Positions 4,589 to 36,500 of a stretch of 64,000 nucleotides of DNA are shown here, piece by piece. The notes beneath the pieces are model-generated. The model made no database searches, was not told the DNA's origin, and worked only from the letters and a program-made list of their open reading frames with translations. Position 1 is the stretch's first letter. Every line of letters begins with the position of its first letter. The stretch is taken from the NCBI GenBank assembly GCA_964030475.1, contig CAXIPT010000012.1, positions 1,039,640 to 1,103,639 on the forward strand, in the 5' to 3' direction. The stretch comes from Tethya wilhelma. Lineage: Eukaryota; Porifera; Demospongiae; Tethyida; Tethyidae. Position numbers and translations under genes: made by a program.

Positions 4589-4652
<64 letters not shown>

Positions 4653-7702: not shown

Positions 7703-10700
7703 TTAGTGTTGTAGCAGCAGTGGATGTGTAGTACCTAAGCTGGAGTGACCATACCTCTCATTGTACCTCTTCATTTCCTCATTGGTGAGGCCCAAACAGT
7801 GGCTATCCATGTTATCATAAAACTTGTGCTGAGCTATCTGTTTGAGTGCTGGACGAATGTTCTTTCCTGTGATGGTCTTGGGTAGGTTCTGATATCCAGT
7901 GAACTGCATGTATATGGTAGCATGAAATGGGCCCATAAAATACAAAAAGAGGGAGAGGGTACTTACAATAAACTTTTCAGGAGGTGGAAGATTTTCTTCC
8001 TTAAGTTTTTTCTTTATGGATTTAGCAAGATGCTGCTGCTGTTCGTGTTGGTTAAGAATTTCCTCAGAAGTAATTCCAACAAATGCACAAGTAGAACGAT
8101 CTACAAAAGAGAGTTAGGATAGAAGAGTAAGACACCAACTACCATCCATTTCTGATTTGCCTGTGTGTACTACTAGCTGCCTCAACTTTGGTACTACAAG
8201 ATACCGTACAGCGGGAAATTTTTTGTGAATTTTCGGTTTGGCAGCTTTCTGCGAAATTTTCCACCACGAAATTTGTAAGGTACAAGGTCGTCACATAATG
8301 TTGAGACGCAATCCACGAAAATTTTCCCCACGAATTTCTATTCAAGATGAAAATTCAAAACTTTTCAGGGGTCATAAGCAGTGTGGTTGGAGAATCAGCT
8401 CAAATCCATTTTTAGACTGCAGATCTGAAATTAATTGGATATAGCTATTTTCACTATTTGATTGAATTTGTGCATGCAAGCGGGTTTTGAGATGATAGAC
8501 TGCATAGTAACTAGCTTATTGTTAACTTCCATAGGTGGTTATAAGTACCAGTGACGGGTGTCGTAATAATTATATTTCCACAGCTGCACTACAGAGGCAA
8601 CAGATCAATATTGATAACAGGGGTGTGACTAGGAATTACTTCTGAATCAGCCAATATTATTCTGGTGCTGCCACAATTTTAACACAAGCTGCAGTACATT
8701 TGCGTCGTTCCCAGGCTCATCCATTGTGTATATTTTCTTTGAAAGGGAGGAGCCTGGGAACAAGGCTAATAGTACATAGCTATGATTGGTTAACTTCTAC
8801 CTTTTGAACTTTGGTATTCCACCAGTAGTGTTTCATGGATGCAATCATCAGCTAATTTCTAAAGAGAAAACAATCACATCACAATTTCATTTTGTAGCTA
8901 CACACATAGCTATATAGAAAGACTTCTTTTAATTACCATGACACTTTCAATGTAGGGTACATCAGCCCAGACTCCCTTGATACGGACTGCATCATCCACT
9001 CGGCCAAGAATATGGGAAAGTGCGTCAAGCTCTGCCATATCATAGGTGTAGTAATGTCCTGAAACATAAAGATGACATAGGACATTAACAATAAAAATCA
9101 CTGGACTGTAGAGTCCACAAAAGCATATCATACTACTGCAGTATTAAGTCTATCGAAGCTTACCAGGATACTCTGTGAAGTAAGCTTCTTTGAATGACTC
9201 AACAGGTTTCATTTGAGTGCTTTGGATTCCTTTGCCCATTCCTGGAATTGTTCTCTTTAAACAGAGATGACCTTTGTTGCCTTCCTGCAAATTAACATAG
9301 TGTTCCATACAAACTTAATTTACTAATCTTCAATGTGTAGTAGCTAAATAGAATAGTCTATATACCACATACCTGGGAAAGGAGGACTGGCTCCACACCA
9401 AAGAAAAAGAAACATTCTTTTGATGGATAGTGAGCAGGAGGTTTGCACTTCTTGTCAATTGGTGGGTAAAATTTGACTGTTGCTACACTGCCAGTTTCTG
9501 TAGAGAATTATAGACCTTCAAGTTCACAATTTCAGCTACGTAAGTAAAACTGATGTTGTTCACAAAGCATGTCATCATCTATACCTGTTTGCCACCATGT
9601 GTCAAGAACAGTACATTTGTCTGTTCCCAGATGTTTTCGATACCAATCCAGCACAAATGTTTGTAGGGGTTCACCAGCTATAGTATGATTAAAGCATTAT
9701 AATTTTAATGACACAATAATTGCTGTTGATGTAGCTGAAACTACCTGCTGCAATGATTCGAAGTGAAGAAGTATCATACTTCTTCTTTTCTCCTCTGTGA
9801 ACACTACGTCCTTGAGCAAACATTAGAGACTTCACAACAAAAGGAGTGATGTAGAACTGGGTGATTTTAAGGCGTTGAATTGTCTCCCAGTAACGCCCTG
9901 AATACGGACAATACATGCAGCTAAACTTTATAAATAATGTGTGAAACCTAGGTCTTAGACATAAACAACACATTATATCTGGCTGCAGATAAGATCCGTG
10001 CACCTAAACCTTATCTCTACAATAAAACAACATTGTTACAATAATATCTGGCTGTATTAACAACGTTCGAAGCTATGTGTATAAGGTGTATACTTACAAC
10101 AATTAGGGTAGGTAGCAATACTTTCAAAGAGCACAGCTGTTCCACCATTACACAGAGGTCCATACACAACACAGGTATGACTAGGTATCCATCCCAGATC
10201 AGACATACATCCAAACACATCATCAGGTTTATGGTCGAATATGAACTGCAGTTAAATGTTGGACAAAAGAGTTAGGAAAACTAAGTACATGTATGTACTT
10301 GTGGCTCTGACATAGTACCATAATATAAATTATAGATATCGGGATTTTTCAACATAAAATTTTTTTTTTTTTGCTACGTGTGAGAGGGTGAACACTTAAA
10401 AAATGCATTGTGATCTATACCGAATTGGTAAAAGTGCCAAAAATTAAAGCATGCAAAAAATACAAAAATGAAAATTTCATTAGCTAAAATTTCTTAATCT
10501 ATGTTACAAATGTAAGCAAGGATGTTTTAACTCAAAGCCTTTGTTATACATTCCAATTAAACTTAAAGAATGCCAAAACACATGTCAATTATATACATAA
10601 AATTTGATATACTTCTCTGAGTACGATACAGTGGCTGCAACAACACTTGGTCAGCATGTGAAAATCACATTGTGACGAACCTTATGTGTAAAAGCTGCAT

Positions 10701-11779
10701 ACAGCAGGTAGCCAGCTTGAGTATGGATGATGCCCTTGGGTTCTCCAGACTTCCCAGTAGTACCAGAGGTGTATATGATAAACAGGTCATCATCACCATT
10801 CATGGATACAGGGTCACATTCACTTGGGGCATGCTCCATAGCCTAAAGCAGTAGTCAGTATAACAACAATTACTTGTAATGAATTTGTACGTTCAAAAAT
10901 AGTGGCCTTAGGTAAATGTACTATACCTGCTACAGTATACTTGATCACAAGGCATAGGAAAATGGGAGAAGAATACACCTACCTGATCAAGGTCTACATC
11001 TCGAGGTTGAGTACAAAGTTCACTATCAGGGCAAGGGATTCTCCTGGTAACCAATACGTGCTTCACATTGTGCTGACAACCGTCCAGAGCCATATCAACA
11101 TTCTCCTTCAGATTGATCTTCTTTCCACCCACTACTCTCACATTAGCTGTGATGATGACTTTAGCTCCAGCTATACAAATATTATAGAGTGTATAATTTG
11201 TCAATAATAACAATAACTTGAACATAATATACTACTAATTAAAGCAAACTTACTATCAACAATCCTTTTTTCCAATGCCTTAGAGCCAAGTGAGGAGTAC
11301 AGGACACTGAATAAAATAATGTTGACAAAAGCATTGTAAAACAACTTTGCTACATAACGTTTGCTCTTACCAGTGCACAGCACCAATTCTGGCACAGGCC
11401 AGCATGGAGGCGGCTGCTAGAGGCATAGTAGGCATACAGATGATGACAATGTCTCCTTTTTGCACATCATTGTTTTTAAGAACATTGGCAACTTTGCAAG
11501 TCATCTCAAAGAGCATTCTATACAATGACAATACAAAAAGATACATGTACAATAATATTTAAAATAAACTTTCAGTCACAAATTTCCAAAACTACATCTA
11601 CACAATGTATGATATTACACATTAGAGTGACGACTTTTCACTCAAGATATTTCCGTGTTTCCTTCTTGACAAATTTAACAGATGTCATTAAATTATACTC
11701 TTCAGTTACCTGTAGGTAATGTTCTGGTGGTTGTTTGGTTCATCTTGCTCCCAGATGATGGCAACCTTGTCTGGCTGTG
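7703..11779 (-). CDS. ACS-2: acetyl-CoA-synthetase-like, 5' truncated
   Basis: The exons are 7703-7903, 7967-8100, 8801-8858, 8937-9058, 9164-9284, 9373-9497, 9585-9677, 9745-9897, 10098-10245, 10681-10842, 10983-11170, 11254-11306, 11371-11517 and a partial exon from 11710. Their lengths match ACS-3 exon for exon, differing only by multiples of three. The motifs are intact: A3 [17 protein letters not shown] (note the inserted SGE before PKG), A5 DTWWQTETG, A8 [13 protein letters not shown] and A10 LPKTITGKN with the catalytic lysine. The 5' part is missing. The exon with the AIIWE-type motif dies in a T-run at about 11770, and no ACAS_N exon was found up to the Death exon at 14.2-14.5 kb. 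The donor of the A3 exon is GTTCGT, weaker than in ACS-3. It is either a truncated gene or one with a rearranged 5' end. Confidence 0.75.
8202..8365. repeat. Dispersed repeat (taccgta-cagcggg type)
   Basis: It opens with TACCGTACAGCGGGAAA and contains several GCGAAATTTTCC and CACGAAAATTTTCCCC blocks. A close copy lies at 18723-18899, in a different intron of ACS-3, so the two are independent insertions. A related start occurs at 14552. Confidence 0.7.
8704..8768. repeat. Short hairpin element (cgttcccaggctc type)
   Basis: The arms CGTTCCCAGGCTC and GAGCCTGGGAAC flank a loop of about 30 bp, followed by aaggcta. Similar hairpins lie at 13877-13950, 32852-32916 and 51461-51537. Confidence 0.7.
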
Positions 11780-14191
11780 TTTTTTTTTGTGATGCAATAT
11801 TATATTATAATAATAAAATTATCATACTAAAAGGCAAAGACCTGGATTCATATGTTCATCTTGGACTTCCACAATCCCATTCACACCTATACACAAACAA
11901 AAAGCCATATGTATAGAGCAGTAAATAAATACTTCCAACAAGAGATACCAAGATCATTTTTAGCTAGCTAGAGTATTATGTAAAGATAGAATTTGTAATT
12001 AAGGTTCCTATAATACTAAGTTGATAGTATAAACTTCTTTGTTCTGTTCTACGATTATGTAAAAATGTATGCATGCCTATGACTGAATCTCTGTGCTTCC
12101 ATTCAACACAAATTCTAGATAAGGCACACCAAATCAATAGACGTGGCCTCGAAGCTAAGCGCTAAAAGAAGCACAAAAGCCTCAAATCTCAGCAACTACA
12201 GTGCTTTGGACGGCAAAAAATAATATTATGTCTACAAGATCAGTCAGAGTTATGAACATAAGTACCATCAATTTTGTCGCTAGAGCTGTCTTTCTTGAGA
12301 TTTCGATGGAACAGACAGACAGACAAAACGACTACTGTAATCCTCTGCATGTGCTACACACATGCCGAGGCTTAATAATTTTTTACACAGTCAAACCGCC
12401 ATTCTATCTTGTTTGTTTTCTTTTTACAATTTAGTCATTCCTACAGTGTACTTTTACAATGTTTTTTTACTTGTTTAATTTATTTAATTCCACGAATAAT
12501 ATTTAGGTTTGTGCGTATAATTATGATAGTTACTTGTATGCTATCAGCATGGATGTTATAGCTTATAATATATAATCTATGCAGATAAAAGTTAGGGATC
12601 TCAGGAGGCTGAAGCTGTATCTAAAAAAATTACTTGCTTTAATATTGCTCATCTAATCTTCTTATAGTGACAACTACATAATAAATGTAACAAAGTATTC
12701 ACCTCCTACATGTTGAAGACTGAAAGGTTACAGAGAGTTCAGCACAACCAGAAATCTTCAGGTATATATTGCAGGCAGGAAGCAAATATTTGGATTCCAT
12801 ATAACACACACATGTCTCTCTGGAAAACGGTCATTATTTTGAATTCTCAAGTAGCTTATGAATTATGCATGAGTGTAGAAAATGAATGGCTGTCATATGG
12901 AAGAGGAGCTTTTTGCCTTGTATCTAGTCACCTATAGAGAGACATGGAAAACCGATACCAAAAGCACGTGTAGACAAAGATACAGTACCACGTTTATTTG
13001 TTCAAGAATCAGCTTCTGAAAGTGAACAGTCTGAGAAAAGTTGAGCCATGATAGAAGAAGAAAAAGTTGGAAAAAAATTAAAGGTTTGGCATATTTAGGT
13101 ACTTTAGCAATAATTTTAGGCCTTGTTTTAGGCTTGTTAGAAAGAGAATGAACTATATAGTAGCTTATAAGAAGCCTTTTAGTAGCAAGCACTCAGTTTT
13201 TGCACAGTTATTCGAGTGAATATTTGTATTGCGCTAATGGGCCATCTGTGCAATTCCTATGCACCCTGTACTACTGTACTGGGAATACTCTGATCATGCC
13301 ATTATTGGATAAAGTACAACTCATGTAAATGGGTGGTTATAATAAATCATTTATACGCAAGCGTACATATGCACAAAATCGTGGGTCTCTTGCTACTGAT
13401 ATTGAATTAGACAGAACTAAACAAAAATAAAGATATAAATTTTCTAAACTACAGAGTACACTAAGCCTATACTGTACCAGGCGCTTGCCTACTGAGTTAC
13501 GCTACGTGGGGAACACCCGACTAGTGCTTACCAGCATGCTCAGTGCTTCACTATAATAGCGAGCTAAATCTGTTTTTGAGGCTTATTTTACTCTATCTCT
13601 AGAGGTAACAAACGAACCTGAGCATTTCAGGTCTAAGACGGCTCCAACATAATTCAAACAGTTTATTTTTGCTTCTTTCTTGACTCTTTTGTTGTCTTTA
13701 TGAAAAAGAAGTGAATTTTCGAGTCTTGTCACAACTTTACTTGCCTAATACTGGAAAAGCAGCCATCTTGCTGCAAGCTGCCAGCAAAACTTAAATTATT
13801 TGCATGGGCGCAACATAGCATCACGCCCACACACAATCAAATATGATGCAAATCTGACGTACTTCACATGAGGACATGTACCAGGCCCTCCCGATTTCAG
13901 CGTGAAACACTAATAAAAAAAAAGAGGGAGTGGCCTGGGTACGAGGCTAGTACACTTGTGGATCAGTCTAGCATACATTGTACATTCAAATAAACCACCT
14001 ACCACTCCCAGTGCAATGGCATGATGGAGAGGATGAACTGGACACTCAAATAAGCAATGCTGCGCAAGCGTGCTGTGAATTTGGAGCACAGTTGGACTGC
14101 TTTCTACCAGGTGTACTCTGGGCATATCATAATACACCCCACGAGACTACTAAGGAGAAGCCATCGTTTCTTCTATACAGAATAATACTGA
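11780..14191. other. Repeat-rich gap between the ACS-2 core and the Death exon
   Basis: No coding exon is recognised, and I looked specifically for the ACAS_N exon and the middle domain that ACS-3 has. 12370-12480 resembles 44280-44390 and 56750-56870. 12600-13320 is a copy of the element at 62797-63415 and, in reverse, 43190-44020. 13877-13950 is a short hairpin with arms near GTACCAGGCC and GGCCTGGGTACGAGGCTA. Confidence 0.6.
12600..13320. mobile_element. Dispersed element, family of 62797-63415
   Basis: It shares long colinear identity with 62797-63415: tattcacctcctaMATRTTGAAGACTG, then tttgttcaagaatcagc, then tattgcgctaatggg. It ends at a palindromic cagtactactgtactggg-like terminus. The 43190-44020 copy is in the opposite orientation. 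No transposase is visible, so it is non-autonomous. Confidence 0.65.
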
Positions 14192-14213
14192 TTACAAACC
14201 TCTTTCTTTACTA

Positions 14214-14515
14214 GAGTCACGAAGATAATCTGCCAGCCGTTTCATTAGTGGTGAAGAATCTTTTAGTGTACTTAAACACGATATCAACCCAGACCACTTT
14301 GACTCCTTATTCTTCTCCATCCACAGTTTCAAGAAAGTCTCAGTGTTGGTATCTTGAGGGACCTCCTGAGGAGAGAGGGAGAGACATCTAGCTACCTCCT
14401 CAACACCATGATGATCACTGAGCCGAGTGGCAATGGAGTGTAGGTCCTCATCAGTGATGTCCCTCTCCTGACACGACTCCCATGTCTCAGGATCAAACTC
14501 CTCTGGGCAACTCAT
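14214..14515 (-). CDS. Death-fold exon, probable 5' exon of an ACS gene
   Basis: The frame starts with ATG at 14515 and encodes about 100 residues. Helical segments follow Death-fold spacing: DEDLHSIATRL, HGVEEVARCLSLSPQEV, ETFLKLWMEKN, SGLISCLSTL and MKRLADYL. A good donor (GTAAAG) lies at the 3' side, so the exon probably ends inside RDSS. It lies upstream of ACS-2 on the same strand. A broken copy of the same exon lies at the 5' end of ACS-5 (36250-36572). ACS-3 has a different Death-like exon in the same position. I infer that it is the N-terminal exon of an ACS gene. The 2.4-kb gap to the ACS-2 core lacks the middle domain, so whether it is still used is unknown. Confidence 0.65.
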
Positions 14516-18320: not shown

Positions 18321-18973
18321 TTAGCACTGTAGCAGCAGTGGATGTGTAGTACCTAAGTTGGAGTGACCATACCTCTCACTGTAGGTCTTCATTTCCTCAT
18401 CAGTAAGACCCAAACAGTGACTATCTATGTTGTGATAAAATTCGTGCTGAGCTATTCGTTTCAGTGTTGGACGAATGTTCTTTCCTGTGATGGTCTTTGG
18501 TAGGTTCCGATATCCAGTGAACTATATGGTAGCAAACATAAACCCATTAAAACAGAGTAAGCATATGGATATCATAATTAATGGCAAAATGACCATGCAC
18601 TGTCTTAAATCAAGACAAATACCCTTGTATATATCAAAGCATCTGGCCTTTTGGTCAGATAAAGGCCTCTGCCTAGCTTCCCCAAAAATTTTGATGAATG
18701 GCTTATTAATACTGCATTATAGTACCGTATAGCGGGAAATTTTCGTGGGGGAAAATTTTTTGCGAATTTCGCGGTTTGGCAGCTTTCCGCGAAAATTTTC
18801 CCCCATGAAATTTGTAAGGTATGTGGTCGTCACGTATAGTTGAGACGCAATCCACGAAAATTTTCCCCGCGAATTTCTATTCAAGATGAAAACGCAAAAA
18901 TATTATCCATAGAGTAAGGCTTCTAGATTCTTCTTGGCACAAAACTTAACACACACATAATAGATGCAAAAAG

Positions 18974-19020
<47 letters not shown>

Positions 19021-22000
19021 GAGAGAGAGAGAGATCGAGTACTTACAATAAACTTTTCTGGAGGTGGAAGGTTTTCTTTGTTCAGTTCATCTTTCATGCA
19101 TTTAGCAAGATGCTGTTGCTGTTCTTGTTTGATAAGAATTTCCTCCAAAGTAACTCCAACAAATGCACAAGTAGAACCCTGATCTACAAATTAAAGTAGG
19201 ATGCTACTCAATATAAATGTGTCACAATGTGCTACTATATACACTATAATAATTTATGATTATGATCATTAAAGTGTTTTGCCTTCAAATACCTAGTAGA
19301 TCTATAACATAATGCTGAATCTATACATTAGTTTTTTTACACTTATCTAAAATTAATGTAAGTGCAAATTGCCACGATGTGCCCTAAATGCACAGCTTAA
19401 AGAGTCAACACTATATAGATTCTTCTAATTTGACACAAGTTTCAGAATCAGTATAATTATAGCCATGCATGATTGCTTCACTACCATAATTAATTTTACC
19501 TCTTGAACTTTGGTATTCCACTAATAGTGTTTCGTGGATGCAATCAGAAGCAGATTCCTAAAGAGAAAATCGCATTAGAGCCACACACATAAATGGTGAC
19601 GACTCCTTACCATGACACTTTCAATGTGTGGTACATCAGCCCAGACTCCCTTGATACGGACAGCATCATCCACTCGGCCAAGAATATGAGATAGTGTGTC
19701 AAGCTCTGCCAGATCATAGGTGTAGTAATGCCCTGAAACATTAAGATAACATGATGTATGTGAAGGGCATTAAACATTAAAGTTCACAAAACCATACTAT
19801 TCCATGCTATGCGTTAATCAAAGCTCACCAGGATACTCTGTGAAGTAAGCTTCTTTGAATGACTCAACAGGTTTCATTTGAGTGCTTTGGATTCCTTTGC
19901 CCATTCCTGGAATTGTTCTCTTTAAACAGAGATGACCTTTGTTGCCTTCCTGCAAATTAACATAGTGTTCTACACTTAAATAAGAAGCTCATGCACTTTT
20001 CTAACCTTAGTAGCTAAATACAATAGTCTATATATATATACACCAACATACCTGGGAAAGGAGGACTGGCTCCACACCAAAGAAAGGAAAGTATTCATTT
20101 GATGGATAGTGAGCAGGTTTGTATTTTTTATCACTTGGTGAGTAATATTTCACTGTTGCTACACTGCCAGTTTCTACACAGAATTAAATCCTCATGTTAT
20201 GCGTAGCTGTTTAGCTAAGCAGAATTCTTTAAAACCGATTCTGCTCAATGAATATGTATATCATCAACTATATATACCTGTTTGCCACCATGTGTCAAGA
20301 ACAGTACATTTGTCTGTTCCCAGATGTTTTCGGTACCAATCCAACACAAATTTTTGAAGGGGCTCACCAGCTAATAGTATGATTAAAGCATTAATCTCGA
20401 ATTTTAGTGACACAATAGTTACTGCTATTGTATCTGAAACTACCTGCTGCAATGATCCGAAGTGAAGAAGTATCATACTTCTTTCTTTCTCCTTTGAGAA
20501 CACTACGCCCTTGAGCTATCATTAGAGACTTCACAACAAAAGGAGTGATGTAGAACTGGGTGATTTTAAGGCGTTCAATTATCTCCCAGTAACGCCCTGA
20601 ACACAGACAACACATGCACCTAAACTTTATACATAACGTGTAAAACCTAGGTCTTAGACTCTACAAACAAGCAACACGTATATCCGGCTGCATAGCTAAG
20701 ATCTATGCACCTAAATTATGCATAATAAATCTACAAAACAAGCCTCACGTATATCTGGCTGTGTTTACAATGTGTGAAGCTATATATAAGTTGTACTTAC
20801 AACAATTAGGGTAGGTAGCAATACTTTCAAAGAGCACAGCTGTTCCACCATTACACAGAGGTCCATACACAACACAGGTATGACTAGGTATCCATCCCAG
20901 ATCAGACATGCATCCGAACACATCATCAGGTTTATGGTCGAATATGAACTGGAGTTAAAGGTTGGACAAAAGAGTTAGGCATACTGAGCTCTGACATAGT
21001 ACTGCTATAGATTGGGATATTTTCACTATTAAAAATTGCTTTGCTACACACGAGAGTGGTAAAACATGACATATTGGGTGATCTATACCAAATTGGTCAA
21101 AATAACAATATTAGGCACACGAAAATTAAACAAGTGAAAATTTTTAACAGCCAAAATTTCCCAATATACGTTTTACATGCAGCAAAGCAATTCCCATGTT
21201 CTTGCTCAAAAGTCTTTGTTATACATTCCAATTCAGCTTAAAGAATGCCGGAACACATGTCAATTATGATATGCTTCCATGAACACAATAATTATTGTAG
21301 CTGCAATAACATCAGGCTGTGAAAATGACATTGTAAACATACCTTGAGTGTAAAAGCTGCATACAGCAGGTAGCCAGCTTGAGTGTGGATGATGCCCTTG
21401 GGTTCTCCAGACTTCCCCGTGGTACCAGATGTGAAAATGATAAACAGGTCATCATCGCCATTCATGGATACAGGGTCACATTCACTTGGGACATGCTCCA
21501 TGGCCTAAAGCAGTATAGTCACAAGAACAACAACAAAACTATCAAGCATACTGTAACAGATATAATACAGTTATAAGTAAGAACACTATTAGCAGCTAGG
21601 TACTAATTTACCTGATCAAGGTCTACATCTCGAGGCCGAGTACAAAGTTTACTATTAGGGCAAGGGATCCTCTTGGTAACCAACACATGCTTCACATTGT
21701 GTTGACAACTGTCAAGAGCCTTATCAACATTCTCCTTCAGATTGATCTTGTTTCCACCCACTACTCTCACATTAGCAGTGATGATGACTTTAGCTCCAGC
21801 TATACAAACATTATAGAGAATGTTGAATATCTACTAATTAAAGCAAACTTACTATCAACAATCCTTTTTCCCAATGCCTTAGAGCCAAGTGAGGAGTACA
21901 GAACACTGAATAAAATTAATGCTGACTCAAGCATTGTAAACCAACTTTGTCACATAATGTTTATTCTTACCAGTGCACAGCACCAATTCTGGCACAGGCC

Positions 22001-25000
22001 AGCATGGAGGCGGCTGCTAGAGGCATGGCTGGCATATAGATAATGACAATGTCTCCTTTTTGAACATCGTTGTCTTTAAGAACATTGGCAACTTTGCAAG
22101 TCATCTCAAAGAGCATTCTATACAATGACAATGCTAAGATTAGAAAAAAAAAACCCACTGATTTCCAAAACTACATCCATGCAATGTCTGATATTATACA
22201 TTAGGGTGATGACTTTTCACTCAATAAATTATTTCCATGTTTCCTTCATGACAAATTTAACAAATGTGATTTATTCTTCAGTTACCTGTAGGTAATGTTC
22301 TGGTGTTTGTTTGGTTCATCTTGCTCCCAGATGATGGCAACCTTGTCTGGCTGTGTTTTAACATGCCGGTCCAGGCAGTTCACTACATGCAAGGATAAAA
22401 GTACTTTATATAGCCAGAAACATTTGCAAGGATTTTATTTGGGCAAAATTGGCGAATTTCTCCAAATCGTCAAATTTTAAATTAAATCCGCCAAAATTTA
22501 ATGGCCGAAATATGAATATTTGAATACGCCCTAGCGCGATCAGGGATTCTTAGCGATAACGTCGCATTTGAAAGCTTGCATGATTGCTTGGCTAAAAAAA
22601 AAACTAAGTTCCATGGCGATATTGTAGCCAGTCCATTATAGCCCCTCCTGTATTTTTTTTACACTGCCAGAAGCATCACTATTTATGCAAGAAGGCTTTC
22701 AGCAGTTAGTTTGATTGTTGCTTAGCTAGCTTCATGACTTGAAAAGCTTTGTCAAATCTACTTTAGTAAAAGAAAAGCTCTTGCGATTGGCATCATCAAA
22801 ACCGGAAGCATTTTGCAGTGATACTAGAATTATAGTTATTTTTGCCATATGCGAAGTGACTCATTTACATAATTGCAAGAGCTCTCAGTAGCTACTATAC
22901 TGATTTCGCCGTATGACGTAATGCACTTTCTGTGTCTCGTTCATCAAAATTAAAGTTCGCCAATAATATCGATTGAACTCCCTTTCGCCAATTAAATTCC
23001 CGCCAAAATAACCGGCTATACGGTAATTGAATCACACACATTTTACCCACAGTTGCACATGCATGCATAATAATATTCTCCACCTCACCGGACACATTCA
23101 ATTTTCCATCAGGAAACCAACGAACGATGCCTTCATTCATGTCACTGGTATCAGCTTTCTTAAACATTTCATCCCACTGCAAGTAACCTCTTGCCTGTGC
23201 TGACCAGAATATCTCAGAGTTACTAGAGATGCTGTCTTCATACATCCTCTGAAATGATGGTTTGAGAGGTGGAGCCTGGAAGGAATTATGTATCAGTATA
23301 TAATACTACAAAGACTATAACAGAATGTATTAACTATTGTTCTACCATAACGAAGATTTTCTTTCCAATGACCAATTCTTCAATGCCATACTTGGCAAGA
23401 TTAGGGTGAGTTGTGCTCTCCATTTGCCTCAGCATCTCCTTTGCTGCTGACAGTGGCACAAGCCACATAATATACAGACTACCACTGCCACCATTGCCTA
23501 GTCGAAGCACATACTTCTTGAGACTGAACTCCCCAGTGAGATCCTTTTCAGTAATACTGACATCTGCTAAGGTTGTTGTAGAATAGTCCCTTTGGAGCTT
23601 GGCAATTACAGGTTGGCAATCAGGCAGTGAATCTTCCTTGCTTCTGCCATCCCAAAAATGAAGAAAGTTAGCCAATTTTGTCTTCTTCTTGAATCTGTCC
23701 ACCTCATCAATGTAGGACTGCATCTGCTCATGAACTTCATTAAGCTCAAACTCTTCCTTGATTTCCAAGACCAATTGGAAGTTGAGAAAATCCCAAGCTC
23801 CAATTCGACTCATGAAGAGGAAGATCTGCTCGAGGGATGAGTGGTTGATGATCTCTGACATTGATGATTCAAAAAGAGAGATGGAACTCTTTTTGTCTGC
23901 ACACCGTTGGTTGAAGAACACCCGGACTTCAGCGAGAGAAGTGTTACTCTCAAGACATGCTTTGAAAGTCTTCCTCATCAAACTAGCAAACTTTTTTTGA
24001 AGATCATTCATGTCAATCTTCACACTCTTTGGGGCAGAGGGAGGACTACGATCTGTTCGTGAATCATTCATGTACATTAAAAGCAATCTAATATAATATT
24101 TGGCAAATGTATAAAATTCAGTGTCGTTCCCAGCCCTCTCCACTATGATCACAACATTAACACTATGGCGGACGCCTGAGAATAAGGATAGAATCAATAT
24201 ACCTAGAACATAGGTAGGTGAAACCTGACCACTCAAGAGTCTCTGGTAGTTTTTAGATCGTTCTTCTATTGATGAAATATGTCCAGAGAAGGCAGCTGAG
24301 GCTGAACAAAATTCACTTTATACACTTAATTTTCAATTGTCCAGTAAATTTCTATTAAACTTTACTTACAATTATCTCCATTGTCATCAGCACCATTATA
24401 GGGGTATACAGGAAGATTAAGTCCACTAGCTGACATTGTTCTGCAAGCTTTATAATAATATTATATTAAAGAGTTGAAATTAAGGTTGAGTAAAGGTGCT
24501 GTTACAACACTCATTTTGATTCAAAATAAGCATTTAGCCTAAACTTTCCATCTGATGTCGACATTGCAATATGAGGCAGATATGCACAGACAACAATAAT
24601 TACTATTACCTCTGTCAGCATCTGATGAGTCAGTATTTTCGGGTTGAGCTATGACTTTTATGACATATTGTTGCCTCCGAGACTCTAGTACATAAAATGA
24701 AAATAATAATGAGAATACATCAACTTTTAAATTGGTTTTTGGAATCATAGATGATGTAGTATTTAGGCAGTTATTATCTCATTTAATATTTACCCTGAGG
24801 CTGACGTATGAGCCTATCAATGGCTTGGAGAAGGTCTGGACTGTCTAGTTGTTCAAGACAGCGAAGCAGTGCCCCCCAGACTGCTGGTTGAACTGTTGTT
24901 ACACAACTTTCAGACCATTTGCTCAGTGCAACATGAAACCTACAAATATTCTGGTCTGACTCTGATGTGCAATTCTTATAGACCTCATCACTGTTGACAC

Positions 25001-25169
25001 CAAGGCACCTGATGACAGCATCAATGGGATGTGAGGACCTCAACAGGTTACTCACTGACACAAGATCGTAGTCCTTGCATTCAGCTGCCTTACACATGTC
25101 CCAGAGCGATGCCCCAAATCCTCTGGGGCACTCACCATAGTCTAGATTTACAGGTATAACTTCAGCCAT
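18321..25169 (-). CDS. ACS-3: Death-fold/alpha-beta/acetyl-CoA synthetase fusion
   Basis: Twenty exons close in phase: 25169-24794, 24684-24610, 24447-24370, 24301-24203, 24052-23346, 23275-23089, 22382-22286, 22117-21971, 21905-21853, 21799-21612, 21504-21343, 20948-20801, 20596-20444, 20370-20278, 20173-20052, 19949-19829, 19732-19611, 19557-19500, 19183-19047, 18521-18321. Together they encode about 1107 residues. Residues 20-120 look like a Death fold, 126-209 are linker, 210-445 are an unnamed alpha/beta domain, and 446-1107 are acetyl-CoA synthetase, about the usual 650-residue length. Motifs: A3 [14 protein letters not shown] (~693-706), A5 DTWWQTETG (~849-857), A8 [13 protein letters not shown], and A10 LPKTITGKN with K~1055. 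The WW pair that shapes the acetate pocket is kept. The expected reaction is acetate + ATP + CoA to acetyl-CoA via acetyl-AMP. The exon-3 acceptor at 24448 is chosen for phase; ATG 24436 is an alternative start without the Death fold. Confidence 0.85.
18723..18899. repeat. Dispersed repeat (taccgtatagcggg type)
   Basis: This is a close copy of 8202-8365: TACCGTATAGCGGGAAATTT, then gcggtttggcagctttccgcg, then ttgagacgcaatccacg. It lies in the last intron of ACS-3. Confidence 0.7.
18981..19034. repeat. (GA)n microsatellite in an ACS-3 intron
   Basis: An almost pure GA run lies just downstream of the donor of the penultimate ACS-3 exon. It is intronic. Confidence 0.9.
22409..23020. mobile_element. 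MITE-like insertion in an ACS-3 intron
   Basis: The ends are inverted: TATAGCCAGAAAC...GGCAAAATTGGCGAA on the left, and on the right the complement of TATAGCCGGTTATTTTGGCGG. Both run into GGCGAA-rich interior sequence. A much shorter relative (about 100 bp) lies at 44523-44624. It occupies most of the intron between the ACAS_N exon and the next exon. Confidence 0.6.
23346..24052 (-). other. Unnamed alpha/beta domain exon of ACS-3
   Basis: One 707-bp exon encodes about 235 residues that fit no ANL family part. The order is amphipathic helices ([20 protein letters not shown]), [18 protein letters not shown], a charged helix [32 protein letters not shown], a beta/alpha stretch ending [29 protein letters not shown], and [10 protein letters not shown]. 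The same order with clear similarity is found in ACS-4 (31523-32379) and, broken, in ACS-5. From memory, domains of this style accompany Death folds in sponge proteins; I cannot verify that here. Its role is unknown. Confidence 0.7.
24794..25169 (-). other. Death-like fold exon of ACS-3
   Basis: The first exon begins with ATG at 25169 and ends in a GTAAAT donor. After about 20 residues it shows Death-fold-like helices: [63 protein letters not shown] and [11 protein letters not shown]. The layout parallels the exon at 14214-14515 (helix, LGV/LSLS turn, charged residue, W, LL-CL), although identity is low. The assignment rests on pattern, not on a profile search. Confidence 0.6.
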
Positions 25170-25610: not shown

Positions 25611-28600
25611 TTAGGTTCTAGCTAGAGTGTGGTATACAATAAACCGATCAAAGACATTTCGTCCAAACGAGAGAGTCTTTTGAAGTAGGGACTGCTCAAG
25701 GCATTGCTGAACTTCTGTCTTGAGCTGATGATGGGCTCTCTTTCCAGACAGTGTCCTAGGGACATCTTGCATGAACTACAACAACAACAAAAAAAAACAT
25801 CATTGCAATTACAGTGTATGCTTATGCCAGCTAGAAGTTTTCTAGTGATTGTAGATAAGTAATCCTCCTTACTATATAATCCTGGGGTGTGGTATCCACT
25901 TCTAGTTTCTTCAAAACATCCTGTAGCTCAGACACAAGGCTCTCTTGTCCAGACTCCTCCAGGTTAGTTGAGGGCACAATTGCAATAGCTGAAGTTTTAA
26001 TTATAATTATTAATCAGGAATGAGCTATACGACTATGATGAATATACATGCAATCCAAGACAATCATGATTGTTTTATTACCTGCTTGACTTGAAGCTGG
26101 TGAAATTAAGACTTTAAAGATCATGGCATCTCGAATAGACTCTGAGTCACCTTTTAGCTGATCTTTCTGCATTTGTTAATTAAGTCAGACAAAATTAATG
26201 ATGACAATTTTATTTACAAGATTAATTTTAACAGACTTACCACAAGTGTTTCAACTTCAGTGACTCCCCAACACACTCCCTTAATACGGACAGCATAATC
26301 AATTCGTCCAATCACTTGAAGTTTATTACATGAAAACCCTTTCACCAAGTCATAAGTACGATAGAAACCTGCACACATGTACATACACAGAACAGGACTT
26401 GGGCTAGACAGGAGAGCCAAGCTAGTGACCAAACACTATATTTCCACAAGCATTGGAATCACTAGAGAGCATACCTTTCATCTTAGAGAAATGTACTTCC
26501 TTTAAGGTCTCAACACTTCCATTGAGTTTCCTTCCCATGCCCGGAGTTGGCTTTTTCAAGTAGAGTTCACCACGATCACTCTATGAAGGACATATCATAA
26601 TGGTATACATGAATTCCATACTTAATGCAGGAACAGTTCACACCTCTAGATTTGGATCAGTGATCTCCACATGGGGGTCAACTCCAAAGAAGGTAAAGGA
26701 TGTCTCCTGAGGGAATCGGCCAGGAGCCTTACCATCACCACTCCTCCAGCGAATGAGAACAATTGAAGCTAGTTCTGTAGACAGAGTGTGTATACAGGCT
26801 ACCATTATGGGTGATGTTATACTAGCTGTATTACACATACCAGTTTGACTCCAGGTATCAAGAAACAGGCATCTGTTCTTGCCAACTGTGCTGAAATACC
26901 ACTCTTCAACATCAGGTGGAATAGGCTCTCCAGCTGAGTTAACCAAATACATGTTAATTAAAATCTTACAGGAACAAACTACAAGAATTAATGCATATTT
27001 TCAGTACACTAATGTATACACTAATAACAAAATAATAATTGTCCAGCATACCAACAGCAATGGTCTTCAGTGATGATAAATCATAACCTTTGACAAACTT
27101 GTCACCAAGTCTAGAGAGTCGTTTCAGCACTGATGGTACTGAATAGAAGTGAGCAACCTTGTGCTTCTCAACAGTCTTCCAGTAGCGACCTAAGAGCATA
27201 TCATGTTATGTGAACTTCATAGCAATGTTAACAAATTACAGGTAATTTAAAATAAATACAAAACATAATGTTGTTCCCTTAAGTTTAACACAACAACAAT
27301 TTAACAAGGACATTACATACCTTCATCAGGAACATTTGGAGTGCCCTCAAAGAGAAGTGTGGTGTCTCCATTAGACAGAGGCCCATAGACCACAGAGGAA
27401 TGGCCTGCCATCCATCCCAGCTCTGCCACACAGCCACACACATCATTAGGCTGACAGTCAAACATGAACTACATGAGAGAGAGGGGGAAGCACTCTTGTA
27501 CAGTAGACTACCTGGTGTAAAGATTGATGTGTTTCAGGTCATAATAGAGTAATTTAAAAACAGGACCAGGCATTACCACTAGCCACATTTTCTCTGTACA
27601 CAACTTAGCTAGTATTTCAAAAGGGCTTAATGAGCCATGACAATGTCCAACTGGGATGACAATGTAATAAACAAAGTGACAACATCAGCACAATGAAGTG
27701 ACTTGGGGAGAGGACTGAGTTGTGCACTTGTAGATCTACTGATCTAGTTGAAAGTACACTATGAGAATTGCCATACATCATAATACACTAAAAGGGTTAT
27801 CAAATCATAAAATAGTACTAGGGAGTTTCACAATGACATTGCATGCAAAACAAACTGATGCCAAACATGTGCATAAACAATTGCAATGTGTACTCATGCC
27901 TCAGTGTGGCCCATACCTTGTGTATAGCAGTGGCATAGAGAAGGTAGCCAGCTTGAGAGTGCATGACAGCAGTAGGGGTGCCCTTCCCAGTGCCTGAGGT
28001 GTACAATATGAACAGCTCATCCTCACTGTCCATGGGCTCTGGGTCACACACAGATGGCTGGGATCTCATTGCCTGGGGGGAAATATGAAAGAATCACCAC
28101 TGAATGTCAGACTAGCCTGCACTGCTGCAAGCAACTCTGAATCTTCTTAACAATNGGAACAGTTCACACCTCTAGATTTGGATCAGTGATCTCCACATGG
28201 GGGTCAACTCCAAAGAAGGTAAAGGATGTCTCCTGAGGGAATCGGCCAGGAGCCTTACCATCACCACTCCTCCAGCGAATGAGAACAATTGAAGCTAGTT
28301 CTGTAGACAGAGTGTGTATACAGGCTACCATTATGGGTGATGTTATACTAGCTGTATTACACATACCAGTTTGACTCCAGGTATCAAGAAACAGGCATCT
28401 GTTCTTGCCAACTGTGCTGAAATACCACTCTTCAACATCAGGTGGAATAGGCTCTCCAGCTGAGTTAACCAAATACATGTTAATTAAAATCTTACAGGAA
28501 CAAACTACAAGAATTAATGCATATTTTCAGTACACTAATGTATACACTAATAACAAAATAATAATTGTCCAGCATACCAACAGCAATGGTCTTCAGTGAT

Positions 28601-31600
28601 GATAAATCATAACCTTTGACAAACTTGTCACCAAGTCTAGAGAGTCGTTTCAGCACTGATGGTACTGAATAGAAGTGAGCAACCTTGTGCTTCTCAACAG
28701 TCTTCCAGTAGCGACCTAAGAGCATATCATGTTATGTGAACTTCATAGCAATGTTAACAAATTACAGGTAATTTAAAATAAATACAAAACATAATGTTGT
28801 TCCCTTAAGTTTAACACAACAACAATTTAACAAGGACATTACATACCTTCATCAGGAACATTTGGAGTGCCCTCAAAGAGAAGTGTGGTGTCTCCATTAG
28901 ACAGAGGCCCATAGACCACAGAGGAATGGCCTGCCATCCATCCCAGCTCTGCCACACAGCCACACACATCATTAGGCTGACAGTCAAACATGAACTACAT
29001 GAGAGAGAGTGGGGAAGCACTCTTGTACAGTAGACTACCTGGTGTAAAGATTGATGTGTTTCAGGTCATAATAGAGTAATTTAAAAACAGGACCAGGCAT
29101 TACCACTAGCCACGTTTTCTCTGTACACAACTTAGCTAGTATTTCAAAAGGGCTTAATGAGCCATGACAGTGTCCAACTGGGATGACAATGTAATAAACA
29201 AAGTGACAACATCAGCACAACGAAGTGACTTGGGGAAAGGACTGAGTTGTGCACTTGTAGATCTAGTTGAAAGTACACTATGAGAATTGCCATACATCAT
29301 AATACACTAAAAGGGTTATCAAATCATAAACTAGTACTAGGGAGTTTCACAATGACATTGCATGCAAAACAAACTGATGCCACACATGTGCATAAACAAT
29401 TGCAATGTGTACTCATGCCTCACTATGACCCTCACCTTGTGTATGGCAGTGGCTTAGAGAAGGTAGCCAGCTTGAGAGTGCATGACAGCAGTAGGAGTAC
29501 CCTTCCCAGTGCCTGAGGTGTACAATATGAACAGCTCATCCTCACTGTCCATGGGCTCTGGGTCACACACAGATGGCTGGGATCTCATTGCCTGGGGGAA
29601 AATATGAAAGAATCACCACTGAATGTCTGACTAGCCTGCAGCAAGCAACTCTGAGCCAATGTGACATTAATGATTGAAACATTTAGAGGGATCAAAGAGG
29701 GAGATCAACCCCTAGTGGTAGATGACAGGACATTGTGGTGATATTCCTAGGGGAATGCCCAGGGAATACCCAGGAATTGTATTATGATTGTCATTCCCAC
29801 ACCTGACAACATCAGGTCAGATGTCTAGTAATGTTCAACTATCAATATTGACATAGCTAGCATGCCTCCCACAATGTCAGGTACACAAGGGACAAGGTGT
29901 AGATAATACAGTTTATGTATTGCATACAAGGCATGCATGGCTACACTAAATTAACCGACCATTACCTCATCTAAGTCCACATCACGATCAGACATGGCCA
30001 CAGCATTAGCAGTTCTCTTGGCTACTAGCACTGCTTCAACTTTGACCTCTTTCAGAGCTTCATCAACCTTCTCTTTCAGTGAGACACACCTCTTGTCCAG
30101 TATCTTCTCATTGGCTGTGATGACCACCTTGGCATTGGCTAAATAGATATAAGAATACATTACTGTAACACCTCCCACCGAGATGAAATGTCCATGAGTT
30201 ACTGTAACATGTAGTACAACATTATCACTCACTTCCTTCTATTCTCTTTCTGAGATCCACAGGACCAAATTCAGAGAAGACAACACTGAAAGCAGACGAT
30301 ACAGTCATGCATATAATTTCACAAGGAATAAACAGATCATAGTGGGGGCTTTCTTCTGGTGCTTGAGGTATAATCATTGTCTTGAAAATAGTGACAAATC
30401 GTGCAATATTATCAAAACACATAGTGCAAGGACAAAGCGTAGTGAGAATCATTGTAAGCTGGGTACATACCAGTGCACAGCTCCTATTCTGGCACAGGCC
30501 AGCATGGAGGCAATGGCCAGAGGCATGGCTGGCATATAGATGATGACCCTGTCTCCTTTAGTGACTCCCTTCACCTTGAGAACATTGGCCACCTGACAAG
30601 TCATCTCCAGGAGTTCACTGAAGGGAAGAAATTATATATCAGAAATATCATGCTACACTGTGCTGTATACATGAAAATTCAATAGGAAAAAATTGTGAGA
30701 TCCACCTGGGATTTAAACCCTGTAGGTCTTTCAAACTCTAACCAACTTTCAAACCAGTCACCTACACGTAATGGCATGACCCACATGCATCCAAAGGTAA
30801 TTCAGTGATCATTTATCCATAACTACAATATCAGAAAATAAAATAGCCACTACCAAGCTCTTTCTTAGTTCTTCTCTCTCTCTCTCATTCAGTCACACAG
30901 ACATAGCTGGGATAGGGAATACAAATATGTGATATCAGGTTATCAACCATGAATAGAATGTAACTCTACCCCCAAATGGAATGACATAATAATGCGTGGG
31001 AGTTAACCACTAGTGCAGCAAGCAGAATGTTCACTACCAACCGATAGGAGAGTCTTTCACTGTGTTCATCCTCTCGCTCCCAAATAATAGCTGTCTTCTC
31101 AGGGAACATCTCCACATGACGATCCAGACAGTTCACTGTCAATACAATGACACACACATGTACTCCTAACAACAGATTAAGGGTTGCCAATGTAACATAG
31201 CTACATACCTGATACATTTAGCTTCCCTCCAGTGAACCATCTGATGATTCCCTCCTCTGGTTGGCAGTCATATGCTCTCTCAAATGATACATCCCACACC
31301 ACCAACTCCTTAGCCTTGGTAGCCCAGAAGCCCTCCAAGTCCTGAACACTCCTCTTGTGTATCTCATTGAAAGACTGCAGAATGTCAAGTATTAAACAAA
31401 CATGAAATTAATTTTACAGCAACATTATGTTTGGAACATAAAGCTCAAACTGGAATGGGCATACTGATAACATCACTAGTGACTATTCACACAGTTTGAA
31501 TAAAGTTGTCCAAACCACTCACTGTAATCCTCTCAATCTTGATCTCTTCAATACCACATGGGAGCTGTTGTGGCCAGTCTGATGCCTTCATCCTCCGTCT

Positions 31601-32776
31601 CATGTAGTCCCCAACAGAAGTGGACACCATCCACACAAGGCACACAGAGCCCATGTAACCATCTTGAAGATGAAGTAGAAGCTTCTTGAGCTTGAACACA
31701 CCAGTGAGGTATTTTTTAACCTCAGCAACTTGAGCAAGAGTGTATTTTGGCCAATTTGCTCTCACTTTCACTACCAAAAGATCGTATTCTGGAGGAGTGG
31801 GTGACTCGTAGCTGCGATTCCAAATGATGAGAAAATCACTCAGCAATGTACCCTTCATGAACAGCAGGATTTTCTCCTTGTATTCAGAGATCTTGTCATC
31901 CAAACCAAGCTTGAATTCTTCATTCACATCTTCCAGAAGATGATAGTGGAGGAATGTCCAGATACGATGTTTACTTAGAAACGTGAAAACATCTCTACAC
32001 GTGTTGTTTGCGAACAACTGGGCAAATTTTGAATCATATTGAAATATGATTTCCTTCTCATTCGGACAGATGCTGGATAGATACACCTTCAGTTGACTGA
32101 CGATAGAATCTGATGATGGCTCTGATGGCTGTGATGGCTGTGATGGTTGTGATGGTTGTGCTGGTTGTGCTGGTTGTGATGGTTGTGATGGTGGTGATGG
32201 TGGTGATGGTGGTGATGGTTGTGATGGTTGTGATGGTTGTGATGATTGTGATGATGGATAGGCCTGCTCAAATCTGTTCAGAACCTCAACTAGTAGATCG
32301 GAGAAGTCACCTTCTAACTTTCTCATCTGTGGTTCCACATTAGGGTTGCTTGGAGTGTGTTCACCATATCGACTTTCATCTGTAGAAATGTAACAGGACA
32401 GTGTGTTCGTAATTTACTAAGAGTTCAGCAATAACTTTACAACTATAATCATTACATCATAGATGGGCACTTGTTTAACTTTCTTATACTTAATTTTGGC
32501 CATTTCGATTGATTTGGTAAAGATCTCCATAAACTATAAATAATTTTTAACTACCACCTGAGAAAATTAACATTTTAACACTCAAAATCTCCCAACCTAC
32601 ATTATCAAGTCATGGATACATAATCCAGGACATTGTCACAATAAAAAGCAGACATAATGCCATAATGGTACAATACCTACTTGAAATTTCTCCTGAGACT
32701 TGTGACGAGAAGTGCGGAGGGCATTCCTCTTTGGATGGTGAGGAAAAACGACCTTGTTCATTGTCACTCTGGTCAT
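25611..32776 (-). CDS. ACS-4: synthetase-like with degenerate active site
   Basis: Exons: 32776-32681, 32379-31523, 31374-31209, 31135-31038, 30617-30471, 30285-30233, 30138-29966. Then come two versions of the A3-to-A5 block (29592-29437, 28994-28847, 28715-28578, 28459-28367, 28300-28170; and 28072-27917, 27468-27321, 27189-27052, 26933-26841, 26774-26644). It ends 26580-26475, 26368-26241, 26166-26082, 25988-25873, 25775-25611. The middle domain is present, preceded by a Ser-Gln-Pro repeat linker. A3 reads [10 protein letters not shown], without the TTGKPKG loop. A5 reads DTWSQTELA: one pocket Trp and the ETG are lost. A8 is [13 protein letters not shown]. The A10-type lysine survives in PRTLSGKR. 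No Death exon is seen before the contig break at 33037. I infer a pseudoenzyme or an altered substrate. Confidence 0.7.
26630..28154. repeat. Contig-end overlap, left copy
   Basis: It repeats at 28156-29650. About the first 850 bp appear identical at an offset of 1526; beyond that there are scattered substitutions and small indels. It ends exactly at the single n at 28155. It carries the A3 to A5/A6 exons of ACS-4. Confidence 0.85.
28155..28155. other. Assembly joint (single n)
   Basis: A single undetermined base lies between two copies of the same ~1.5-kb sequence, the signature of two contigs whose overlapping ends were not merged. Confidence 0.85.
28156..29650. repeat. Contig-end overlap, right copy
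   Basis: This is the second version of 26630-28154. It has an in-frame TAA in the A3 exon (ctta at 29451-29454, where the left copy has cata), small indels in the following intron, and continues directly into the next upstream exon of ACS-4. It most likely represents the other haplotype. Confidence 0.8.
32110..32262 (-). repeat. Coding Ser-Gln/Pro tandem repeat in ACS-4
   Basis: GGTTGTGAT/GGTGGTGAT-type 9-bp units encode a linker of SQP and SPP tripeptides, interrupted by AQP, before the middle domain. The length is likely to vary between alleles. The other frames give poly-His/Asn and poly-Val/Met shadows. Confidence 0.85.
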
Positions 32777-33564: not shown

Positions 33565-36500
33565 CTTGTGTATGGCAGTGGCATAGAGAAGATAGCCAGC
33601 TTGAGAGTGCATGACAGCAGTAGGAGTGCCCTTCCCAGTGCCTGAGGTGTACAATATGAACAGCTCATCCTCACTGTCCATGGGCTCTGGGTCACACACA
33701 CATGGCTGGGTTCTCATTGCCTGGGAAGGGAGGAGGGGAATATGAAAGAATCACCACTGAATGTCTGACTAGTAGCAAGCAACTCTGAGTCTGTTTCACA
33801 ATGTGAATTTACTGATTGAAACTTTTACAGGGATCATAGAGGGAGATCAACCCTAGCCACTCAGTGTGCATATGGTAGCTGACATAACATTGTGGTGATA
33901 TTCATAGGGGAACGCCCAGGGAATACCCACAAATGAAGCCGTGATGCATGATTGTCATTCCCACACCTGACAACATCAGGTCAGATGTCTAGTGTTGTTA
34001 AACTATCAATATTGACATAGCTCCCACAATGTCAGGTACACAAGGGACAAGGTGTAGCTAATACAGTTCATGTATTGCATACAAGGCATGCATGGCTACA
34101 CTAAATTAACCGACCATTACCTCATCTAAGTCCACATCATGATCAGACATGGTCACAGCATTAGCAGTTCTCTTGGCTACTAGTACTGCTTCAACTTTGA
34201 CCTCTTTCAGAGCTTGGTCGACCTTCTCTTTCAGTGAGACACACCTCTTGTCCAGTATCTTCTCATTGGCTGTGATGACTACCTTGGCATTGGCTGGATA
34301 GATATAAGATTATATTACTGCAACACCTCCCACCGAAAAGAAATGTCCATGCATGAGTTACTGTAACATGTAGTACAACATTATGACTCACTTCCTTTTA
34401 TTCTCTTTCTAAGATCCACTGGACCAAATTCAGAGAAGACAACACTGAAAGGAGATGATACATTCACGCATATAATTTCACGAGGAATAAACACATTCCC
34501 GGGCCTTCTTCTGGTGCTTGAGATAATAAAATTTGTGACATCATGTAATATCAATAAACCACATGGTGCAAGGAGAAAGCGTAATGAAAATCATTGTAAG
34601 CAGGGTACATACCTGTACGCAGCTCCTATTCTGGCACAGGCCAGCATGGAGGCAATGGCCAGAGGCATGGCTGGCATAAAGATGATGACCCTGTCTCCTT
34701 TAGTGACTCCCTTCACCTTGAGAACATTGGCCACTTGGCAAGTCATCTCTAGGAGTTGACTGAAGGGAAGAAATTATCATAAAATCATGCTACACTGGGC
34801 TGTGTACATGAAAATCCAATGGGAAAAAAAATCCATTTGGGATTTTTAGGTCTTTCAAATTCTAGCCGACTTTCAAACCAGATCTCAAGGCCTATATACA
34901 CATATGGCATGACCCACAATCATGCAGATGCATGCATATAAGCATTTAACTATCAATCTCAACAAAATTCACACTAAGTTTCCACGGTAACTTAGTGCCG
35001 GATCATCCATCCATAACTGAAAAATCAATAGCCTCTACCAAGCTCTTTCTCAGTTCTTCTCTCTCATTCAGTCACACAGACATAGCTGCATAGGATAGGG
35101 AATATGTGATATCAATTCATCAACCATGAATATAGAATGTAACTCTAACCCCAGGCCTAATGGAATGACATTAATGTGTGGGGGCCACTAGTAAAGCAAG
35201 CAGAATGTTCACAACCAACTGATAAGAGTTTTTCACTGCATTCATCTTCTCGCTCCCAAATGATGGCTGTCTTCTCAGGGAACACCTCCACATGAACATT
35301 GACGATCCAATGCAATGACATGTACTCATAACAATAGACAAAAGGTCAAAGGTAATTAACATGCATACCTGATACATTTAGCTTCCCTCCAGTGAGCCAT
35401 TTGATGATTCCCTCCTCTGGTTGGCAGTCAAATTTATAGTAACATCATGTTTGGAATACAAAGCTTAATCTGGAATGTGCACACTGATATCACCACTAGT
35501 GACTATATTCATACAGATTGAACAACATTGTTCAAATCACTGTAATCCTCTCAATCTTGATCTCTTCAATACCACAGGAGAGGTGTTGTGGCCAGTCTGA
35601 CTCCTTCATCCTCTGTCTTATGTAGTCTCTGTGATATCGTGGGTAGATTAACTCAATATAAATCGAATAACTTCTCTGAATATGTGTTACAAAAAGAGTA
35701 GCCTATTTATACAAAATTAAGGTGACAGAAAAGGTAGAAAGGAAGAGGAGCAAAACATACAAATAAGTACATATACAGTACAAGATTAAAGAATACATAT
35801 TCTATACAATTACTAAAGTCATACATCCTAATCATATTAGCTTAGTCATCTAATTAGTTACAGTATAAGTCTATTCAGCTAGTGACATGCATAAGTTACA
35901 GGTGTGAGCATGCATGCTAAAGAGATAAAGAGTTAGGATTTCCTGTGTGTGGACATTACCAAAATAATTATGGTAATTAATGGTTAATCTTCCAATTATG
36001 ACAGTCTCCAACAGAAGTGGACACCATCCACACAAGGTACACAGAACCCGTAGTTATTGTAGCATTATTAAGAAAAAGTAGAAGCTTTGTAAATTTGAAT
36101 TCACCAGTGATCGAGATATTCTTCAACCTCAGCAACTCGAGCTAGAGTCTGGTAGCTGCGATAAGCAACAATGAGTAGAACCAGCATATTATGTGTGCGT
36201 ATGTGTAGATAATTCAATTATCATAACCACTGCAAAAATACAAACCTCCTTTTTTACTTGAGACACAAATTAAGGCAACCTGCCATCCATTTCATCATGC
36301 AGAGATGATGATGCCAGTGTGCTTAAACATGTTATCAAACCAGACCACTTTGACTCCTTAATTATTCTTCTCCATCCACGTACAGCTTCCTTAGTGTTGG
36401 TACCTTGAGGGACCACCTCAGGAGAGAGGGAGAGACACCTAGCAACTTCCTCAACACCACGACGATCACTGAGCTGAGTGGTAATGATTCAGAAGTGAAG

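Follow-up and report, generated by a model that had tools for sequence, protein, structure and literature searches.

A sponge gene predicted to join a Death-like fold and a TRADD-N domain to a module derived from acetyl-CoA synthetase

The stretch of sponge DNA analysed here (Tethya wilhelma; 64,000 nucleotides, G000:C12:1039640-1103639 in a genome of 124.6 Mb; hereafter the window, in whose numbering gene positions are given) holds a tandem array of six copies, A to F, of a gene resembling acetyl-CoA synthetase (ACS); a further copy, G, lies to its right. Gene A (25169-18321, minus strand) consists of 19 exons separated by 18 introns, all GT-AG, which read as a single frame of 1151 codons without a stop. 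The identical 19 exons are given by a spliced aligner, with the same model as its query, so this agreement is one of self-consistency only. The predicted protein carries a Death-like fold at residues 1-125, a linker, a helical region and a TRADD-N domain at about 260-488 (together the middle, or X, domain), and an ACS-derived module at 490-1151. Pfam reports ACAS_N at 498-554 and AMP-binding at 555-950, nothing significant N-terminal of these and no AMP-binding C-terminal domain. Exon 1 is predicted to be spliced onto the remaining exons, and gene A probably encodes a three-part Death-TRADD-N-ACS protein. The reading developed below, to which we give a probability of about 0.6, is that this is an immune-type protein of the sponge in which the ACS module passes its ligand state on to the Death fold.

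An earlier note on this DNA had counted 20 minus-strand exons closing into about 1107 codons. The GT-AG exons and the single open frame stand, but the exons number 19 and the codons 1151. Within exon 4, a stretch at about 24229-24053 is hydrophobic and absent from P0001, a related protein described below, and several GT-AG pairs there keep the frame; it is possibly an in-frame intron, which would make 20 exons. Exactly 1107 codons were not reproduced with a well-scoring intron.

The Death-like fold that the earlier note placed on exon 1 is supported by structure. An AlphaFold2 (AF2) model of the exon, built from a two-row alignment, has a mean predicted local distance difference test (pLDDT) score of 80.2, and a Foldseek search of the Protein Data Bank (PDB) with this model gave 56 matches at E up to 10, of which the best 19 are all Death-domain entries (RIPK1, Fas/FADD, ankyrins, p84, and TNFR1; top match E 0.18, probability 0.99); no match reaches E 0.001 or better, and from rank 20 Death and unrelated entries are mixed among the 50 matches listed. 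With exon 1 alone as the query, the PDB yielded PIDD chains (E 1.3 and 1.9). A profile built from 11 Death exons of the same genome (10 upstream of X domains, and L031) gives exon 1 a score of 11.2 bits (E 0.011), more than any of 600 shuffled sequences (best shuffle 6.0), and hhalign pairs this profile with a three-row profile of the A, E, and G exons at E 6.7e-5 (probability 63.8, 82 columns). In copies A, C, E, and G alike, a GT at the corresponding position immediately follows the Death domain; read directly from the sequence, it is in phase 1 in A, E, and G, and that of G is a weak donor.

The middle domain, which the earlier note left unnamed, is one member of a family for which the genome gives at least 58 matches with E no higher than 0.01 (of 130 candidates, 125 were scored). 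Both this count and that of Death exons (at least 150 scored, out of 591 candidates) are lower bounds. A Death exon lies within 3 kb upstream on the same strand at 14 of the 58 X loci, calculated with the 150 scored Death exons, compared with one downstream, none on the opposite strand, and about 0.1 expected under uniform placement; gene A falls outside these 14 because Pfam does not detect its exon 1. At L010, one open frame encodes Pfam Death (61-117), X (243-468), and NACHT (553-690), and at L008 X stands ahead of NACHT.

Transitive profile matches identify the second half of the X domain as TRADD-N. A genome scan with PF20694 (TRADD-like_N) gave 16 places at E up to 1, four of them above the family's cut-off; all four match a profile of the X second half (E 3.2e-7 to 2.7e-11, within a small set of open reading frames), and when three of these loci were scanned again over their whole frames the two matches overlapped in each. 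L040 has both the helical half (E 1.7e-21) and TRADD-like_N (E 3.9e-4). TRADD-N has been defined by a tiny residue plus Ser (or Cys) in the β2-β3 turn (PMC8195603, Kaur et al. 2021). Gene A has Gly-Ser at this turn position, before LYIMWLVP, and the other aligned X sequences have Gly-Ser, Gly-Cys, or Asn-Ser, with the exception of the truncated L018. A search with PF13820 found nothing in the X domain, and its 14 controls were equally silent.

The sequence comparisons place the ACS module as a fast-changing derivative of an animal ACSS1-like gene. In a midpoint-rooted tree of 28 ACS rows, the six fused rows (A, E, B, G, an X-ACS gene on C1, and P0001) form one clade with support of 100/100 amid animal ACSS, on long branches; the stem of the clade measures 0.83 changes per column. 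Derivation of the module from bacteria was considered and rejected, since in this tree the fused clade sits amid animal ACSS and the four bacterial rows form a separate branch. The genome also contains two ordinary ACSS genes (C1:15770638-15775552 and C1:15791601-15785387), the first sharing 475 of 644 aligned residues with the Halichondria panicea protein P0017, the corresponding figure for the second being 424 of 643; both group with H. panicea and Ephydatia proteins, in keeping with a demosponge genome.

P0001 is a protein of 844 residues from a JGI source (five member sequences, one contig of 2969 bases) that aligns in one frame to residues 264-1040 of gene A at 43% identity, covering X, TRADD-N, and most of the ACS module, without the A10 region. 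Of the 120 proteins listed among 6793 found, no other covers 98% of residues 255-900 of gene A. Because its open frame spans many intron positions of the present genome, it is suggested to be a transcript. The C1 X-ACS gene is closer by score to P0001 than to gene A. The X-ACS fusion, judged from several loci and a protein from another source, is retained; the three-part joining of Death, X, and ACS is predicted from this genome alone, P0001 supporting its X-ACS part. A protein database search with residues 1-500 returned none of 7992 scored candidates at E 0.001, which is weak evidence of absence since P0001 was missed as well.

How much catalysis the module retains bears directly on its role. 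The ACS half of gene A matches the acetyl-CoA synthetase 5ifi in the PDB at E 2.6e-119, and its alignment to TIGR02188, the acetate--CoA ligase equivalog, spans positions 7-609 of 629, nearly the whole profile. Its score is 554.7 bits and that of P0001 621.6, both below the cut-off of 724.95; two sponge ACSS score 884.4 and 930.5. Of 185 columns invariant among 16 animal ACSS, the two ordinary ACSS of the genome keep 182/184 each, compared with 137/185 in A, 126/174 in E, 128/184 in B, 116/158 in G, 127/157 in the C1 gene, and 124/166 in P0001. By published motif definitions (PMC11255334), gene A has A5 (DTWWQTETG), the A8 pattern RX(D/K)X6G, and the A10 Gly-Lys; its A3 contains three additional residues, its A7 reads TYD in place of (S/T)GD, with the Gly lost and the Asp kept, and it lacks the Arg two positions beyond the A8 Gly. 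None of the six fused modules has an unaltered A3, and A5 is altered in B, G, and P0001. Gene A has I-P and A at the acyl pocket, where V/I-T and V are canonical; V310, T311, and V386 of Salmonella Acs act in specificity (PMC8511477), and the mapping of these positions onto the pocket of gene A is our own assignment from the alignments. Residual or shifted activity is possible in gene A, and the modules of A and E may still activate a carboxylate by adenylation, perhaps a larger one than acetate.

Of the motifs that the earlier note held to be intact, A5, the A8 pattern, and A10 are present, but A3 carries the insert and the Arg after A8 is gone. Its description of a complete enzyme of the ANL type (acyl-CoA synthetases, nonribosomal peptide synthetase adenylation domains, and luciferases) overstates the case, as does its proposal of acetyl-CoA production at a Death-fold assembly: the module scores below the TIGR02188 cut-off, keeps 137 of 185 invariant columns, and has the A3 insert and an altered acyl pocket, and the A3 of B, G, the C1 gene, and P0001 is changed. 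The best supported of the alternatives is close to that idea: Death assembly would lift inhibition by TRADD-N, and the ACS module would then act as an effector enzyme that adenylates a carboxylate, with acyl-adenylate or acyl-CoA as its product, or with local depletion of ATP and CoA. It draws on the retention of DTWWQTETG, GEP, RX(D/K)X6G, and the A10 Gly-Lys in copies A and E, on purifying selection on their ACS modules (ratio of nonsynonymous to synonymous substitution rates, dN/dS, 0.265 over 590 codons), and on the other enzymatic C-terminal domains named in such proteins (PMC8195603). Between B and G, dN/dS is 0.329 over 748 codons. The missed cut-off and the altered A3, A7, and post-A8 Arg of gene A make it somewhat unlikely, as does the changed A3 of B, G, the C1 gene, and P0001, by which full catalysis is seemingly not what the family conserves. 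A mainly ligand-responsive or regulated module, rather than a supplier of acetyl-CoA, is favoured because the fusions preserve their architecture but not their catalytic motifs, and the missed TIGR02188 cut-off and the two ordinary ACSS genes elsewhere in the genome count on the same side; we hold this tentatively, at a little under even odds. That gene A is instead an ordinary acetyl-CoA synthetase with an unrelated N-terminal extension for localisation would agree with the homology along its entire C-terminal half, but the presence of two ordinary ACSS genes, the score below the equivalog cut-off, and a middle domain common to X-NACHT genes leave this highly improbable.

The order Death, X, ACS is real as the earlier note had it, and is common to A, C, and G (Table 1); the array of ACS-like copies does not figure in that note. 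The state of the other copies raises the question of whether the cluster is made of decaying duplicates, with gene A a young pseudogene open by chance: C, D, and F are broken, E is truncated at its 5′ end, and B has some exons twice, at 98%. This is quite improbable in view of the 1151 open codons of gene A, the dN/dS of the A and E modules, and the persistence of X-ACS genes at other loci and in another source.

Table 1. Parts of gene A, the remaining ACS-like copies, and related loci (window numbering unless another sequence is named).
Feature	Position	Strand	Basis or remark
Gene A exon 1, Death-like domain, residues 1-125, phase-1 donor	24794..25169	-	gene model, AF2, Foldseek, own-genome Death profile
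Gene A exon 2, linker, 75 nt, phase 1 at both ends	24610..24684	-	gene model; weak, without homolog
Gene A exon 3, linker, 60 nt, phase 1 at both ends	24370..24429	-	gene model; weak, without homolog
Gene A exon 4, middle (X) domain	23346..24301	-	gene model, genome-wide X family
X domain, helical half (genome-wide family)	23613..24023	-	profile from an alignment that includes gene A itself
X domain, TRADD-N-like half, with Gly-Ser turn	23352..23621	-	alignment and profile matches
Gene A exon 5, start of ACS module (ACAS_N)	23089..23275	-	gene model, Pfam
Gene A exons 6-19, remaining ACS module, stop codon at end	18321..22382	-	gene model, Pfam, PDB match
Gene A exon 10, A3 motif with three-residue insert	21343..21504	-	gene model, motif alignment
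Copy B, X and ACS, changed A3	26235..32215	-	exons further 3′ to about 25600 by eye
Copy C, decayed Death, TRADD-N, and ACS pieces in that order	33580..36581	-	a frameshift
Copy D, ACS pieces	38537..46348	-	one in-frame stop; X domain not found
Copy E, 5′-truncated ACS	7709..11783	-	532/590 aligned residues identical to gene A
Death-like exon upstream of copy E	14195..14515	-	X domain not found between
Copy F, ACS remnants	4108..6185	-	a frameshift
Copy G, Death, X, ACS order	80477-70462		beyond the window
C11 locus, X and start of ACS	C11:2283568-2284775		
C1 locus, X and ACS, no stop	C1:21213457-21205465		C-terminal end not recovered

Several stretches in and around the array are repeated. 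Tandem duplications repeat some ACS exons in copy B (26630-28140 and 28156-29654, 98%) and in copy D (38505-39885 and 39887-41267, 99.9%). Window positions 45990-46459, with ACS N-terminal exons, are 100% identical over 470 bp to C11:2284346-2284815; the C11 copy has an X domain upstream, 41% identical to that of gene A, and none was found at the window copy. A second block, 62188-62926, is 100% identical over 739 bp to C11:2278205-2278943 and is perhaps a mobile repeat. Two further Death-type sequences lie nearby: a separate Pfam Death exon at 1217-1414 on the plus strand, opposite to the array, and, to the right of the window and outside the described copies, an open reading frame (L035, 66395-66796, minus strand) that matches the profile of the A, E, and G Death exons at E 1.1e-11.

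A number of observations count against the three-part protein and the signalling role proposed for it. Pfam finds no Death match in exon 1; with the own-genome Death profile, the related exon of copy E reaches 4.8 bits, less than four of the shuffles; and the three-row profile of the Death exons matched only TAL-effector repeats in the PDB. These last matches were rejected as an artefact (29 rows, with no stretch passing alone in any). The Death exon of copy G is absent among the matches listed for the own-genome profile. The profile search of residues 1-125 that the earlier note had called for is divided, with the Foldseek result and the score of exon 1 above all 600 shuffles on one side and the missing Pfam match, the exon of copy E, and the TAL-only result on the other. 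The Death exons of E and G have a dN/dS of 0.809 over 107 codons, indicating little constraint; linker exons 2 and 3 of gene A are without any homolog; no Death exon was found for copy B or at the C11 and C1 X-ACS loci; P0001 has no Death domain and begins some 25 residues ahead of X; and the path of copy G crosses one stop at the X-ACS junction, perhaps an aligner error, because a usable donor and acceptor flank it. On the side of TRADD-N, just one of the three loci scanned again over whole frames passed the Pfam cut-off; PF20694 matches directly in one of 30 X members (E 0.01), which is not gene A; the unrelated family NifW matches one X member at 1.8e-4, and chance-looking families reach similar or better values; a search of the PDB with the X profile gave no TRADD chain; and the AF2 model of the X domain is too poor (pLDDT 54.6) to show or deny the RRM-like fold of TRADD-N. 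The kept A5, A8 pattern, and A10 lysine of gene A, for their part, favour some catalysis.

A different explanation is that two neighbouring genes, a Death exon or gene beside an X-ACS gene, have been joined wrongly. In its favour are P0001, C1, and C11, where X-ACS is seen without a Death exon, the lack of homologs of the linker exons, and the weak constraint on the Death exons of E and G. That constraint value and the low score of the copy E exon weigh somewhat against a three-part protein and for two genes. Two genes are nevertheless improbable: Death, X, and ACS recur in the same order in A, C, and G, the GT that follows the Death domain has the same position in A, C, E, and G (in phase 1 in A, E, and G, if weak as a donor in G), Death and X are linked at 14 of 58 X loci, and L010 carries them in a single frame.

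Gene A resembles a described class of proteins. In Amphimedon, 357 TRADD-N proteins of the NCOA6 clade have been reported, and most of their architectures consist of a Death-like unit, TRADD-N, and a variable C-terminus, for which ankyrin, SH3-LRR, kinase, MATH, SH2, PDZ, caspase, PNPase, and HD domains are named (PMC8195603). TRADD-N has been proposed to keep flanking domains inactive until a signal comes, and Death-TRADD-N proteins are predicted to bridge sensing and effector modules (PMC8195603). By its N-terminal Death-like fold, its TRADD-N, its variable C-terminus, and the large expansion in a sponge, gene A would belong to these proteins; the part that appears to be new is its ACS-derived C-terminus, ACS not being among the domains named in section 10 of that paper. 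The earlier note knew of no described system of this kind, which is too broad for the Death-TRADD-N scaffold. No description of such an ACS fusion was found among openly licensed PMC papers, judged by title. Sponge Death-NACHT proteins of the NLRD type (PMC12909245) offer a second parallel, in that a Death-X unit precedes NACHT in L010 and X does so in L008, whereas gene A has the ACS module in the place of NACHT. With animal ACSS1 and TIGR02188 gene A shares ACAS_N and AMP-binding, and the fused modules branch within animal ACSS. They differ from them in their long branches and changed A3, A and P0001 also in scores below the equivalog cut-off, and A in A7 and the acyl pocket.

For the Death-TRADD-N-ACS protein proposed here, the immune role, the assembly, and the ligand are hypothetical. 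TRADD-N would lie between the two other parts; altered binding by the ACS module (of ATP, a short carboxylate, an acyl-adenylate, or CoA) would act through its domain rotation; the ligand state would be passed via TRADD-N to the Death fold; and the Death fold would nucleate a signalling assembly. A more specific form, an enzyme turned receptor in which binding of a short-chain carboxylate or acyl-adenylate and the ensuing rotation switch Death-fold assembly on or off via TRADD-N, is taken as unlikely. If it were true, the sponge would read microbial or mitochondrial metabolites of the acetate type directly through a Death-fold protein. Gene A, with many ACS motifs kept, and its sister fusions with changed A3 form a testable pair. 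A retained fusion of a metabolic enzyme, present at several loci and in another source, would link the metabolism of short-chain acids or nucleotides directly to Death-fold signalling in an animal of an early-branching lineage.

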